From: Clostridiaceae bacterium JG1575
GTDB taxonomy: Bacteria; Bacillota; Clostridia; Clostridiales; Clostridiaceae
Direction: 5' to 3'
DNA length: 61,679 bases
Assembly (NCBI GenBank): GCA_002838815.1
Contig: LQGW01000001.1
Coordinates: 1-61,679, forward strand
The first letter of the stretch is position 1. Each line of letters starts with the position of its first letter. The translations under genes and the position numbers were made by a program. Below the pieces are notes generated by a model, which ran no database searches, was not told the DNA's origin, and saw nothing but the letters and a program-made list of their open reading frames with translations. Below are positions 57,893 to 61,679 of this stretch, one piece after another.

Positions 57893-58165
57893 CATAAAAA
57901 AAAGCCGCCCCTAAAAAGGGACGAAGCTTGATTCTCCGTGGTACCACCCAAATGAAATGGCAAAGCCATTCCGCTCGACATCGTAACGTGATGAACGTCC
58001 CGACCTACTCTTGGTTCAGCGGGGCTGCTCCCGGGCGTTGCGCGTATTGCAAGGGCTTCCCGTCGGACTTACACCATCTTCCGACTCGCTGAGGGACCCT
58101 TTTGCAGGCGGTTCCGTTCGTTGCAGTTTAGGATGCCCGGGGCGAAGAGGCCTCGGGATTTGTTC
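57893..58165 (-). ncRNA. T-box riboswitch leader of asnS
   Basis: On the minus strand, the T-box sequence GGGTGGTACCACGG (about 57937-57950) is followed by a terminator stem. Upstream are stem I features, including AGCGAG and GGTGTAAG (K-turn and AG-bulge like) and a GAACC segment that may be the specifier loop with AAC (58016-58014). Uncharged tRNA-Asn should stabilise the antiterminator and let asnS be transcribed. The specifier placement is tentative. Confidence 0.88.
57896..57925 (-). terminator. Regulated terminator of the T-box
   Basis: CGTCCC pairs with GGGGCG across TTTTTA and is followed by a run of T on the minus strand. Its 5' arm would compete with the T-box antiterminator. Confidence 0.8.
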
Positions 58166-58198: not shown

Positions 58199-58382
58199 GG
58201 GGGGTTCTATTGTCGGAGGGCCCCTTCAAGAGAACCTAAGAATCCTAAGGTTTGCGCATCATTTCATTGGTCCATAGCGTCGCAAGATTCACCGCCCCTC
58301 GAAAGCCAACCAATGGAGGCTCGTACGCATGTCGCCACAGATGATCCGGGCCTTCAATTTGAAGGCTTTGAGATCTCTTTGC

Positions 58383-59469
58383 TCAGTGCAGCAATTCCCC
58401 GCTGCCCATTAAAAACCCTTTTGGATCGGCGGCTAAGGTTTGTTTGAGTTGATCGGTCAGGGGCTCCATGTCGATGTCACCAAGGCTACTGCAACTGCCT
58501 ACGCAAAAGATGTCCTCAAACTCGAAGCTCTCTTTTGCGTAGGCAGCAATTCCCAAGAGAACATCCCGGTGTCCTGCGAGAACGAGTTTCGACTCTTCTT
58601 TATGAGCGCGCAGGAACCTGGACAACACGACCTGCATGGGTTGTATTTGGCGGTTTAGGACGTCGATCTCTCGATGAATGAACGCTGAGTCGAGGGGGAG
58701 TGCGAAAAATTGTTCCAGCCTCTCCAGCCAATCCACGGTTCCCCGAATCCCATAGGGACGCGCCATAAGATAAGGTGTTTTATACCGCTCCTTTAGATAT
58801 TTTGCCGCCGCCTCCCCCTCGCGCCGAATGACAAGATTCACCCGCGCCCCCCCCCATTTGTTCCACCTGGGCCACGGTAGTGTCAGAGGACAGGATGCAA
58901 AGGGGCGTTGCCCCAAAGGCTCCCTTAACCAACCGCGTCAGTTCCGCTGCGTCTGGATGAAAGGCATATAAGTCGGGACAGGACCCTATGATGTTAAAGA
59001 GTCGATGCTCTTTGGGGCAAGGATCCTTTGAGAGCACCTTCACCAGATGCAACAGGGTGTTCTCCACGCCCTGTTGGCGATCTTTGTCAAACCCGCCAAC
59101 GGGTAAAGGAATCACTCGAGTATTCGGGAGCTCTAGGGAGAGCTCCGTGGCGATGGCGTCCCAATCCATCCCAATGACCTCCGGCACTGAGGAGGGAAGA
59201 AGAAAAATGGTGGAAATCCCCTCGGTTTGAGAAACTTGCTGTACCGCACGTGTGAGGCGATGGGTATCCCCCATGGCAATATCGGTTTCCCCAAGATGGG
59301 TAGAATAAAGCTTCGCGGCATTGGAGCCCATGCGGTGGAGGAACGTTCTCCCATAGGCCATATGCCCCATGCAGCCATATTCAAGGACGGCGGCGTCTTG
59401 AATCCCCGAAACGCACCAAAGCGCGGCCATGCGTGCCGATATTGGCGGTGTTGTTTTATAAAGCCCCAT
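58383..59469 (-). CDS. NifK-like component 1 subunit, split by a G9 tract
   Basis: If one G is removed from the nine-G run at 58855-58847, a single protein of about 362 residues results. It is a nitrogenase component-1 type oxidoreductase: an N-terminal cysteine pair (ALWCVSGIQ, EYGCMGHMAYGRTF, Cys19 and Cys33), the core GTVDWLERL and RFLRAHKEESKLVLAG and the C-terminal CVGSCSSLGD. In the given sequence the upstream frame ends in a short wrong tail. It starts 14 bases inside the NifD-like gene. The short length, about 362 against 450-520 for NifK, fits nitrogenase-like rather than true nitrogenase subunits. Confidence 0.75.
58847..58855 (-). repeat. Nine-G homopolymer that splits the NifK-like frame
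   Basis: The nine C on the plus strand encode nine G on the coding strand. With eight G the frame is QMGGARVNL and continues to the end; with nine it runs out as QMGGGAGES and stops about 60 bases later. Such tracts slip in replication and are also prone to base-calling errors. Confidence 0.85.
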
Positions 59470-60739
59470 AAGCGCTCAGCTCCTTTTGCCCGGAACAACC
59501 CTTCCCCAGGCGACTCAATAAGGTGAGGGTGCGTTCATACCCCACCTGTCCGTATAGATCCAAAACGGGAACCGTTGGGGGATGGTTGAGGGCCCGGCCG
59601 CCCCAATCCCCTAGCACCACATCGGGAGCCAATGCCTCAACAATGGCGGCGTCTGCTTGCTCGTTTCGCATCTGGCCGATAATGGGGTTTTGATCCTGCC
59701 GGATCAGTTGTTGCCGCCAATGCCCATCGGAGGGATAAAACTCCTCCATGTGAATCATGATCGCTCTCATGCCAAGCTCTGTTAGGTAAACGGAGAGTGG
59801 CAGGGGCTGGAGTGCCCCGACATGGGCACTGATATACTGCCTGTTTTTTAAACATTGGGCGGCCATGCGTTGCACTTTTTTTGCGGTCGTTTGTTGGGAC
59901 AGAAAATGCTGGCGGATCTTCACTTGCAGCAGGTTCTCGAGGAATAAATAGGCGGCGTCTATCTCCTTGATGCTGTAGACATCCTGCAAACTGACCAAGG
60001 GGATGTGGTGCTCTTTTGCCAGATACTCCCCCAACGGATTCATAAACGGAGAAAGACTAATGCTCAACATCGCATCCCCGGCTGAAATAAAATCCTCCAA
60101 GGTGGACTCCGGAGCAAGATAGCGCAGCGTTATCTTCTCTTGTTCCAAAAGAGGAAGGATCATCGGCGCGGGAATGTGATCTTCTTTGGGGCTACGACCC
60201 AGGATGTTGACCACATTTGGTTTTTTGGTTGCTTTTTCGATCACTCGACCCAAGGCCAAGAGCGTTTTCCAGTAGCCCGGTTGGTACCCACCGCATTTGA
60301 AATAACCAAGGGAAATGGGCAGGAGCACTGCACCTACCTCGGACTGGAGCTCAAAGCACAGACGGTCCATATCCTCGCCCATTAACACGGGAACACAGGT
60401 GGTAAGGAGCAAAATGACCTTTGCTCCGGCTTGATCCATTTCCTTGATTGCCTGGATCAAGCCTTTGCGAAAGCCAAACACCACTTCCTTGCTGTCTAAA
60501 AGATAAGTCCAGTGCAGTCCATCCGTCCCGGCGGGGGAGAAAAGGGGGATGTTGCGGCTATAGTAGGCGCATTCTGCGGTGCCGATGACCAGCGTTGAGA
60601 CCCCTTTGATTCGTACGCCTAAAGACAAAGCGGTGTGCATGGGGCAGTGGGTTCCAGGGGAGGCAGCAGCGCAAAGCCCCTGGACTTGGTTCATTGATTT
60701 TACAGTAGAAAGACACTTCAAATGAGGGATACGGGTCAT
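59456..60739 (-). CDS. NifD-like component 1 subunit of a nitrogenase-like complex
   Basis: This 427-residue oxidoreductase is of the NifD/NifE/BchN superfamily. The conserved cysteines that hold the P-cluster-like cluster can be matched: Cys23/Cys32 (GLCAAASPGTHCPMH), Cys57 (VIGTAECAYYS) and Cys115 (LLTTCVPVLMGED). The stretch DSKEVVFGFRKGLIQAI is the typical D-VFG-L-AI region. At its usual place I see no clear homocitrate/FeMo-cofactor cysteine-histidine pair, so no Mo nitrogenase role is claimed. It overlaps both the NifH-like gene (ATGA) and the NifK-like gene. Confidence 0.85.
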   Translation of the reverse strand: MTRIPHLKCLSTVKSMNQVQGLCAAASPGTHCPMHTALSLGVRIKGVSTLVIGTAECAYYSRNIPLFSPAGTDGLHWTYLLDSKEVVFGFRKGLIQAIKEMDQAGAKVILLLTTCVPVLMGEDMDRLCFELQSEVGAVLLPISLGYFKCGGYQPGYWKTLLALGRVIEKATKKPNVVNILGRSPKEDHIPAPMILPLLEQEKITLRYLAPESTLEDFISAGDAMLSISLSPFMNPLGEYLAKEHHIPLVSLQDVYSIKEIDAAYLFLENLLQVKIRQHFLSQQTTAKKVQRMAAQCLKNRQYISAHVGALQPLPLSVYLTELGMRAIMIHMEEFYPSDGHWRQQLIRQDQNPIIGQMRNEQADAAIVEALAPDVVLGDWGGRALNHPPTVPVLDLYGQVGYERTLTLLSRLGKGCSGQKELSAYGAL

Positions 60740-61488
60740 GCGGGGTCTTCCTCCAGCAGCATCCGAGCAAGGGCTTGATAATGACGAGTCATTTCGCTGT
60801 CGGGGAACGCTTCCACTACTGTTTTTCCTTGTTCTTCAGCCCTTTGCACATGAGCATCTCTGGGAAGATGAAAAAGCACCAGGGTGTTGTTTTCGTCGGC
60901 GGCTTTTTCGACCAAAGCCTCCTCCCCCTCAAAGTTTTTGGCATTAAAAATAAAGCCTCGCAGGCGAGCGTAGCCTCTGGAGCCAAACCCTTGGATCGCA
61001 TGCGCAATGTTGGAGGCGGCATAAAGGCTCATCATTTCACCGGAGGTGACAATGCAGACTTCATCGGCGTACCCGCTACGAATGGGCATCGCAAAGCCCC
61101 CGCATACAACATCTCCCAGGACATCGTAGAGCACTACATCGGGAGAATACACCTGGTAGGCATCCAATTCCTCCAGCTTTTCAAATGCCGTGATGATGCC
61201 GCGTCCAGCGCAGCCGACCCCGGGAATTGGACCGCCCGATTCCACACAAAGCACTCCCGTGGTGCTTAGGTACACGATATCTGATAGGGCCACCTCTCCT
61301 TTGTCTCTAAGGGTATCCAATACAGTGGGAATGGTCGTTCCCCCCGTCAGATTGCGGGTGGAGTCCGCTTTGGGGTCACACCCGATTTGCAACACCGTCA
61401 GTCCCATGGCGGCCATGGCCGCCGCAATATTCGAAACGGTTGTTGATTTTCCAATGCCGCCTTTTCCATAAATTGCGATTCGCTTCAT
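60736..61488 (-). CDS. NifH/BchL-like iron-protein reductase
   Basis: The 250-residue ATPase has the deviant Walker A YGKGGIGKST (8-16), the IGCDPKADST switch, and both cluster cysteines, Cys93 (GVGCAGRG) and Cys129 (DVVCGGFAMP), so it should form a dimer bridged by a [4Fe-4S] cluster and pass electrons to the two downstream subunits with ATP hydrolysis. Arg96 matches the arginine that is ADP-ribosylated in NifH. It is shorter than NifH (about 290), as nitrogenase-like reductases often are. GGAGG is six to eight bases before the ATG. It starts the operon seen here. Confidence 0.92.
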   Translation of the reverse strand: MKRIAIYGKGGIGKSTTVSNIAAAMAAMGLTVLQIGCDPKADSTRNLTGGTTIPTVLDTLRDKGEVALSDIVYLSTTGVLCVESGGPIPGVGCAGRGIITAFEKLEELDAYQVYSPDVVLYDVLGDVVCGGFAMPIRSGYADEVCIVTSGEMMSLYAASNIAHAIQGFGSRGYARLRGFIFNAKNFEGEEALVEKAADENNTLVLFHLPRDAHVQRAEEQGKTVVEAFPDSEMTRHYQALARMLLEEDPA

Positions 61489-61506: not shown

Positions 61507-61679
61507 TACTGGACCAAATGGTAGGCGATGCAGGCGGGTCTTCCCCGGCGAGGATCGACTCCCAGCGCTGCATCAAGGGGTAATGGTTCTCATGGGGGCG
61601 GGGGGGGGGGGTAGTATCCCGGCCGTTATGCAGAACAACCCCTGGTCGGCGCTCCAGAATGCGCCCGGCAGTGTTAAGG
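61507..61679 (-). pseudogene. 3' end of an upstream gene, disrupted at a 12-base homopolymer, cut by the window edge
   Basis: A minus-strand frame ending at the TAG at 61507-61509 reads PLDAALGVDPRRGRPACIAY, HLVQ, stop. It resembles the C-terminus of iron-complex (FepC-type) ABC ATPases with their VDP-GRP pattern, but this is a guess from 25 residues. The same frame has a TGA just after the C12 run, and the open frame before the run reads GRILERRPGVVLHNGRD. A length change in the run could join a different frame. Confidence 0.3.
61600..61611. repeat. Twelve-G homopolymer near the window end
   Basis: Twelve consecutive G on the plus strand (preceded by GGGGGC) form the longest homopolymer noticed here. 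It lies just upstream of the NifH-like gene and inside the end of the previous frame. Confidence 0.9.

Follow-up and report, generated by a model that had tools for sequence, protein, structure and literature searches.

The window, by which we mean the whole stretch of 61,679 nucleotides that was analysed, ends with genes for a nitrogenase-like reductase (H, D and K). We put at about even chances the reading that they are an inactivated or mis-assembled copy of a reductase belonging to an operon for iron-chelate uptake, and that this enzyme would reduce the imported chelate to free iron. This reading draws on the gene order, the association with transporter genes, the type of binding protein, the D cysteines, the missing cofactor cysteine and the broken K, all of which were observed; from these we infer the cluster type, the substrate and the site of reduction. 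The family most likely consists of ATP-driven, low-potential, DPOR-like reductases that would free iron from ferric siderophores in clade A, to which the window belongs, or from heme in clade B. More tentatively, at a little under even chances, we propose that it forms a branch of its own within the nitrogenase superfamily and serves as an anaerobic iron-release enzyme for siderophores (A) and heme (B).

H and D are intact and K is broken in the window

57914..58130, minus strand: T-box leader of asnS (RF00230, 87.9 bits, gathering 93, E 1.1e-19)
58245..59469, minus strand: K, second component-1 subunit, broken by a frame break and an in-frame stop (PF00148 in two pieces, three-frame translation)
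58383..58385, minus strand: in-frame TGA in K
58847..58855, minus strand: nine-base C run at the change of frame in K
59456..60739, minus strand: D, component-1 subunit, intact, 427 aa (PF00148, 190 bits, cut-off 28.6)
60736..61488, minus strand: H, intact NifH-like reductase of 250 aa, a [4Fe-4S] ATPase (ORF)
61512..61574, minus strand: C-terminal remnant of a FecE-type ABC ATPase gene (66.7% over 21 residues to the F. contorta ATPase)
61600..61611, minus strand: homopolymer of twelve bases within the ATPase remnant; no G/C run in the window is longer

H matched PF00142 with 308 bits (cut-off 25), and its P-loop and both cluster cysteines are readable, bearing out the reductase with two [4Fe-4S] cysteines of the preliminary description. 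The D cysteines Cys32, Cys57 and Cys115 are conserved in the cysteine columns of the alignments. Compared with Faecalicatena contorta, the values are 83% for H and 58% for D. The PF00148 matches in the window scored 190, 102-104 and 44-52 bits and, together with the PF00142 match, place the genes in the nitrogenase superfamily. H and D overlap by 4 bases, and D also overlaps K. The tight overlaps described earlier are present, as are the lengths of 250 (H) and 427 (D) residues; the length of about 362 residues for K, and its treatment as one frame, have to be given up because K lies in two frames.

K is made up of a 229-aa ORF (59469-58780) and an ORF in another frame (58916-58383), which cover Pfam positions 2-193 and 190-398 of PF00148. 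In tblastn, F. contorta K matched the window in two frames, to 58251, and three-frame translation carried the homology past 58383 to a C-terminus at about 58245; intact K in relatives is about 407 aa. At the site of the TGA, six aligned clade A relatives have Met (3) or Trp (3). Barring a mistake in the assembly at this place, the reductase copy of the window appears to be inactivated. Errors of assembly or sequencing, or homopolymer slippage, could account for the damage to K and to the ATPase remnant and leave a working copy, which we consider unlikely. The frame break falls exactly on the nine-base run and the remnant contains the twelve-base run, these being the longest two of four G/C runs of at least 8 bases in 61.7 kb, and H and D are intact. 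However, the in-frame TGA is outside any homopolymer, and the remnant differs from an intact copy on another contig of the same genome (C34) at several residues, beyond what frame alone would give. Such an error would bear on the window copy only. In a comparison of F. contorta with a Ruminococcus MAG, dN/dS was 0.003/0.26 for H, 0.046/0.26 for D and 0.023/0.17 for K, revealing strong constraint on all three. Between the window and F. contorta it was saturated and is no measure of relaxed selection on the window copy, and for the C-terminal part of K it was not computable because of the in-frame stop. An operon broken in all related strains had been named beforehand as grounds for doubting the system; it is broken in the window but intact in most of the relatives seen.

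The window is the entire contig and the assembly has nothing beyond 61679, so there is no right side outside the window as had been supposed. Its final ~170 bases appear to be the degraded end of an ABC ATPase gene, and a FecE-type ATPase gene precedes H in several relatives. On C34, the transporter is intact without H-D-K (the TGA in its permease gene is that gene's own stop codon) while K of the window is broken, so the transporter does not need the window copy. On the other side, the asnS T-box marks the next transcription unit, outside the H-D-K system; an Rfam scan of the window at gathering scores gave no match. The genome is 97% complete. In it, nifB (TIGR01290) had 0 matches, PF00148 matched solely the D and K pieces of the window, and there was no further strong homologue of H, D or K, which extends the earlier statement that no nifB, nifE or nifN is in view to the genome at this completeness.

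The family is separate from the named families tested

None of the NCBIfam models for nitrogenase, DPOR, COR and CfbCD reached its cut-off. H scored 327.5 of 402 with CfbC, 325 of 394 with nifH and 192 of 331 with BchX. D was far under cut-off with BchN (23 of 420) and BchY (17 of 425), and the CfbD model gave 14.3 of its 268.4 cut-off. For the intact K of F. contorta, BchB was the best model (78 of 490 bits), with BchZ at 62 of 529. The nifD, nifK, vnf and anf models were far under cut-off for H, D and the K pieces of the window and for F. contorta K.

A phylogeny of D and K had been proposed as a check. In our trees, which contain no MarD, IsrD or CfbD sequences, both subunits branch apart from the references for Nif, Vnf and Bch. 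Placement was taken from the joint tree of D and K, whose branch with the 15 D rows of the family (100/100) includes three unassigned rows as well, at an open fork. It was not taken from the D-only tree, in which the long Nif rows and the unassigned rows are placed, weakly, within clade B. In the H tree, clade A alone is resolved. In the D tree, clades A and B join with support of just 93/75, and their D proteins are only ~25% identical; the two clades may differ in substrate. The D trees left out the D of locus G322 (two ORFs) and locus G198 (contig starts inside D); the D of G874 is cut by a contig end, and that of G674, with two TAA at its 3' end, has an ORF open for 418 aa. The broken K of the window was left out of the K tree and of the K cysteine counts.

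Membership of a known family (methylthio-alkane reductase, isethionate reductase or CfbCD), with the transporter importing its substrate, would fit the overall H-D-K layout and the H scores near the CfbC and nifH models. We regard it as highly improbable, as the CfbD and Bch models are far under cut-off, the genome has no nifB and, in the available text of PMC11423573, a single one of the three D cysteines remains in IsrD, against three in IsrK, the reverse of what is seen here. The earlier view of a nitrogenase-like enzyme other than a Mo nitrogenase is in keeping with these results: H-D-K lies outside the named families tested, and no cofactor-assembly genes were found with it.

Cysteine columns suggest a DPOR-like cluster

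Cys32 and Cys57 were present in 25/25 D rows and Cys115 in 26/26; locus G621, whose D start was placed too late and has gaps there, was left out of the first count, and the first NifD cysteine, one column off in the 26-row alignment, was aligned in a separate alignment. The D cofactor cysteine is absent in the window and in 25 of the 26 D rows, G525 having a Cys there. At the three NifK cysteine columns, no cysteine was found in any of the 26 K proteins of relatives; clade A K has a Cys three residues ahead of one of these columns. P-cluster-type cysteines had been ascribed to both subunits: the three of D hold, but those of K do not, going by the same columns in the 26 relatives, the window K being outside that count.

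With the cofactor cysteine missing and the D cysteines DPOR-like, the cavity would have room for a large substrate. This favours an alternative in which the enzyme attacks the organic moiety of what is imported and iron is freed by destruction of the ligand: clade B would reduce or open the heme porphyrin, and in clade A the compound reduced would be a siderophore or some other imported tetrapyrrole or corrinoid. The rank of BchB as top model for the intact K of F. contorta points the same way, as does the action of DPOR, COR and CfbCD on tetrapyrrole rings, yielding chlorophylls and F430, in the parts of PMC11423573 consulted. Taken with the binding proteins described below, we consider ligand destruction somewhat unlikely.

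Iron-complex transporter genes accompany H-D-K in most relatives

At 22 of 26 related loci (clade A, 7/11; clade B, 13/13; outliers, 2/2), genes of an iron-complex ABC transporter lie within the operon or next to it. This tally, which draws in part on a survey of ORFs within 8.5 kb of D, counts the window apart, leaves out G198 and includes some close relatives of each other. In a control with 1.5-kb flanks, a permease or binding protein was present at 1/40 other PF00148 loci compared to 12/24 family loci, 11 of the 12 being clade B. Four clade A loci have no transporter in the operon (G033, G711, G797 and G525; three of them form one sub-branch), and because of these a transporter in the operon is not obligatory for H-D-K. 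G711 has a transporter set 2.4 kb off on the opposite strand, which was not counted. The preliminary advice to look for ABC transporter neighbours was well placed, and the context it had left blank is filled in by most relatives, which lie within or next to uptake operons of the ferric-siderophore or the heme type.

In intact clade A relatives, H-D-K is accompanied by genes for an AraC regulator, a binding protein of siderophore type, a pair of FecCD-type permeases and a FecE-type ATPase. Against the PDB, the F. contorta binding protein matched FhuD (E 3e-15) and FepB (2e-14), compared to 0.0088 for the best heme-binding protein. FepB was the best model for seven of 8 clade A-type binding proteins scanned and FecB for one, all below every equivalog cut-off (FepB 45-86 of 205), and the enterochelin esterase model gave 32 of its 222 cut-off; these siderophore-model scores are too far below cut-off to put a name to the clade A chelate. 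A Sporomusa locus has a TonB siderophore receptor over cut-off (TIGR01783, 340 of 223.5), a second TonB receptor under the cut-offs of the CfrA-, CirA- and FepA-type models, and an Esterase-family gene. The binding proteins of clade A, like the first Sporomusa receptor, look to be of siderophore type and not of heme or B12 type, which argues against destruction of the ligand.

In clade B, IsdE was the best model for 12/12 binding proteins scanned (84-358 bits); the binding-protein scans left out that of G298, which is cut by a contig end. One of the 12, that of G621, passed the cut-off (357.7 of 298.65) and occurs with NEAT and Shr-like domains; the other 11 scored 84-269 bits, under the cut-off. 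Isd-type heme uptake, defined as IsdE over cut-off plus NEAT, was found at that one locus. NEAT proteins were present at G363, G621 and G642 and sortase at G363 and G642. Downstream of K, five clade B-type loci have a Flavodoxin_3 gene. The G363 flavodoxin matched heme-bound FldH (8G64) at E 2e-20, compared to 7e-4 for the next flavodoxin, and the His aligned with the FldH heme ligand is kept in 5/5. NEAT and flavodoxin genes occur at a minority of clade B loci. FldH-like flavodoxins of the anaerobilin-reducing type, as described in the available part of PMC10404700, would again suit an attack on the ligand.

The reductase might also make a metallophore or a modified tetrapyrrole for the uptake system and not act on the imported chelate. 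Two outliers (G280 and G530) have methyltransferase genes beside H-D-K and the transporter, and ABC transporter genes of another type near G402 and G642 could serve export. However, inspection by eye revealed no siderophore synthetase gene beside the clade A and B operons, and the usual partner is an importer; we rate this biosynthetic role as quite improbable.

Proposed release of iron from imported chelates

In the favoured reading, reductive release of iron, the clade A transporter set would import a ferric chelate on which H, D and K then act in the cytoplasm. H would spend ATP to deliver electrons of low potential to a [4Fe-4S] cluster between D and K, whose ligands, as in DPOR, would be the three cysteines of D plus one K residue other than the cysteines of NifK. 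The electrons would go on to the imported compound, bound in the cavity equivalent to the FeMo-co site of nitrogenase, and reducing either the iron, to Fe(II), or the ligand would release the iron without oxygen. Clade A would act in this way on ferric siderophores and clade B, in Isd-like operons, on heme.

Fe-protein potentials with ATP are about -0.4 to -0.5 V. By itself, such a potential is short of the most negative catecholates, which counts against siderophore reduction. Ferric siderophores lie at -350 to -750 mV, out of NAD(P)H reach, in the accessible text of PMC9727729.

If true, the family would be an oxygen-free counterpart of heme oxygenase and of ferric-siderophore reductase in Gram-positive and other anaerobes. 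In our reading, little is known of how strict anaerobes release iron from very stable ferric siderophores, or of how clostridia, without oxygen, obtain it from heme. With a nitrogenase-like answer, an unassigned part of group IV would gain a function, and one knockout in a culturable host could test it. In the open literature, searched by titles and the starts of abstracts, we found no link of a nitrogenase-like H-D-K to siderophore or heme uptake; the nitrogenase-like proteins in the available portion of PMC9431491 are NifB/IssA-like, with NifH for F430.

Comparison with known systems

DPOR (BchL-BchN-BchB) is likewise a three-subunit, ATP-dependent reductase of the nitrogenase superfamily, with three N/D cysteines, a non-cysteine at the NifK Cys95 column of B/K and no cofactor cysteine. 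In contrast to K of the relatives, BchB has a Cys at the NifK Cys153 column; DPOR is also apart in the tree and belongs to photosynthesis rather than iron uptake. CfbCD is a group IV relative, and CfbC is the top-scoring model for H, but Cfb has no K subunit in the available text of PMC11423573, whereas K is present here, though broken in the window.

MarHDK and IsrHDK are group IV H-D-K operons for non-nitrogen substrates, as far as the parts of PMC12552129 and PMC11423573 at hand describe them. Mar binds an [Fe8S9C] cluster via Cys270 and His429 in the former source; family D lacks Cys at the NifD-equivalent cofactor column, and Mar, compared by that description, has its His in another loop. 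Isr has one D cysteine, three K cysteines and an IsrB partner in the latter source, a cysteine pattern reversed here. Both systems have a radical SAM partner gene in these texts, and none was seen by eye in the clade A and B operons.

Anaerobic heme use by ChuW/HutW/HmuW with HmuF/FldH, or by HmuS, shares the task proposed for clade B and the FldH-like flavodoxin, but depends, in the descriptions available, on radical SAM methyltransferases or the de-chelatase HmuS and not on an ATP-driven nitrogenase-like enzyme. FhuF, the flavin SIPs and the Fes-type esterases resemble the proposed system in releasing iron from an imported siderophore in the cytoplasm. They are unrelated proteins, driven by NAD(P)H or ferredoxin, or hydrolytic.

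An interrupted H-D-K operon at the contig end

The window is the entire contig C1. At its end, the minus strand carries the H, D and K genes, encoding a NifH-like reductase and two component-1 subunits. The features of this region are as follows.

57914-58130, left of H-D-K: T-box leader of asnS, scoring 87.9, just below the Rfam gathering score of 93
58383-58385, minus strand: in-frame TGA in K, downstream of the frame switch
58847-58855, minus strand: nine-base C run, site of the K frame switch
59456-60739, minus strand: D, intact ORF, PF00148 (component-1) 190 bits
60736-61488, minus strand: H, intact ORF, PF00142 (NifH) 308 bits
61512-61574: apparent remnant of an iron-type ABC ATPase gene, covering the C-terminus (67% to Faecalicatena contorta across 21 residues)
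61600-61611: twelve-base run adjoining the ATPase remnant

The preliminary description had reported three genes here, with K ending at 58383. H and D are intact as described, with strong Pfam matches, but K is broken by a frame switch and a TGA. The N-terminal half of K keeps to a single frame as far as ~58850, after which the C-terminal half occupies a different one; homology extends beyond the TGA to ~58245, so that the proposed end was premature. At the TGA site, clade A relatives (those grouping with the window) have Met in three cases and Trp in three; the K of F. contorta has 407 residues. This copy of H-D-K is probably dead. What remains of an iron-type ABC ATPase gene, apparently its decayed C-terminal end, lies in the last bases of the window. 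Four G/C runs of at least eight bases occur in the window, the longest two being those in K and beside this remnant. An intact homologous transporter, without H-D-K alongside, is present on C34, another contig of the same genome; its binding protein, two permeases and ATPase show 62, 65, 68 and 78% to F. contorta. Elsewhere in this genome (97% complete) PF00148 gave no match and PF00142 one weak match only (33 bits), nor was nifB found, extending the absence noted earlier.

D and K separate from the Nif, Vnf and Bch references

No NCBIfam cut-off was reached by H, D or the K pieces. The same holds for the K of F. contorta, which is intact and scored best on BchB (78 vs 490 bits). Family members were sought with a D profile (A1), and a score gap sets them off from other matches. 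Of the 398 genomes in the phylum sample, 25, counting that of the window, matched at E 1e-25. Only ten others scored at least 199 bits; G198, a member whose locus is cut by a contig edge, scored 108 bits, and the remaining 13 matches at most 113 bits (of five scanned, three were nifE and two had no assignment). A sample of 58 relatives contributed members G033 and G019; it also included two further genomes from the window's genus (one 87% complete), neither of which matched. The class sample gave 11/391 at E 1e-40, window included; one sampled order gave 2/73, one of them new; one genome-contig scan gave two member loci; and a Sporomusa termitida plasmid carries a further member.

In a joint tree, 14 K rows formed one clade (99/98) and 15 D rows fell on one branch (100/100), shared with three homologues without assignment that form an open fork within it (G006, G010 and G435). 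Clades A and B grouped together (93/75), with clade A at 100/100 (99/100 in a D-only tree) and clade B at 98/95. Outside lay every NifD/E/K/N, Vnf and BchN/B reference, together with the remaining unassigned rows. The assigned nitrogenase-like enzymes named in the literature consulted (PMC11423573, PMC12552129, PMC10418091) are Isr, Mar, Cfb, DPOR and COR.

Other component-1 groups were also observed. Two genomes of the window's family, G031 and G017 (loci L010, L012, L025 and L026), have 16 and 19 component-1-type matches to the D query; two of these proteins were scanned and reached no NCBIfam cut-off. To our knowledge, no known pathway needs nearly as many component-1 genes. Loci L009, L013, L015 and L060, from four genomes, form a separate group without assignment, with N-termini alike by eye ('LIYSSPATLSFNSPGA'-type); the two scanned had no NCBIfam match near cut-off. 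A plasmid record of the gut anaerobe Subdoligranulum variabile (OY725846.1, 318958-319686) contains a NifH/BchL-family gene, 34% to H, with no gene annotated beneath the match.

H-D-K are associated with iron-type transporters

Overall, transporter genes accompany H-D-K at 22 of 26 related loci, some of them close relatives of one another, bearing out the suggestion that ABC transporter neighbours be sought. Within 1.5-kb flanks, a permease or binding-protein gene was found at 1/40 other PF00148 loci vs 12/24 family loci; 11 of these 12 were clade B, because clade A permeases sit further from D.

Clade A comprises the window, F. contorta, a Ruminococcus MAG, Sporomusa, G264, G402, G674, G874, G033, G711, G797 and G525. 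Its typical order is AraC regulator, siderophore-type binding protein, two permeases, ATPase, H, D and K, and transporter genes are in the operon at 7/11 loci, window excluded. In G402 another ABC gene interrupts the series of H-D-K, ATPase, permeases and binding protein, and in G674 no ATPase is visible at the locus. No transporter set was seen at the G033, G797 and G525 loci; that of G711 is only 2.4 kb off on the opposite strand and was excluded from the count. At L039 and L040 (35-2367), SufD-, SufS- and SufU-like iron-sulfur assembly genes, named by eye, lie directly 5' of the operon's AraC regulator.

The typical clade B order is H, IsdE-like binding protein, permease, ATPase, D and K. 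All three transporter genes are present at 13/13 loci (G198, whose locus begins at the contig edge, was excluded), in another order in G621 and G642. At both outlier loci, L078 of G280 and L110 of G530, H-D-K lie near an iron-type ABC transporter and methyltransferases.

Binding proteins suggest siderophore-type and heme-type cargo

The nearest PDB structures to the F. contorta binding protein were FhuD, FepB and other siderophore receptors, the best heme-binding match having only E 0.0088. Among eight clade A-type binding proteins, from seven loci (one of two at G264) and C34, the best model was FepB in seven and FecB in one, all below cut-off. A pair of TonB receptors and one putative esterase are also encoded at the Sporomusa locus. 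In clade B, IsdE was the best model for all 12 proteins scanned of the 13 (84 to 358 bits), its cut-off being exceeded in G621 only; the closest structures to the G019 protein were Lmo2184 and IsdE. NEAT proteins occur at G363, G621 and G642, among the subset of loci scanned. A Flavodoxin_3 protein follows K at G363, G198, G642, G676 and G472; that of G363 matched heme-bound FldH (8G64) far above any other flavodoxin, and the His aligned with the FldH heme ligand is kept in all five. The outlier binding proteins match neither siderophore-type nor heme-type models well, and these loci perhaps serve a third cargo. We found no paper in our literature search that connects nitrogenase-like genes with the uptake of siderophores or heme, and the main text of a 2025 bacterial heme review does not use the word nitrogenase (PMC12670364).

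A possible reductive role and candidate cluster ligands

H, D and K are under strong purifying selection in a comparison of F. contorta with the Ruminococcus MAG. In these two the system therefore probably works, although the copy in the window may not. Ferric siderophore potentials are given as -350 to -750 mV at pH 7, out of NAD(P)H's reach (PMC9727729), and an ATP-gated low-potential donor would therefore be a sensible tool, perhaps not for those of lowest potential.

D keeps three cysteines at the NifD, NifE and BchN cluster-ligand positions, and the NifD cofactor cysteine is absent in 25/26 D rows. K lacks NifK's three cysteines; the Cys95 column holds His in clade A, where a Cys also lies three residues earlier, and Thr in clade B and the outliers. 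From sequence, we infer that D-K may bind a [4Fe-4S] cluster in the manner of DPOR and have a cavity left open, which would accommodate an imported compound. BchB likewise departs from NifK at the Cys95 column, where it has an Asp that is a cluster ligand, yet unlike the K family it retains a Cys at the Cys153 column.
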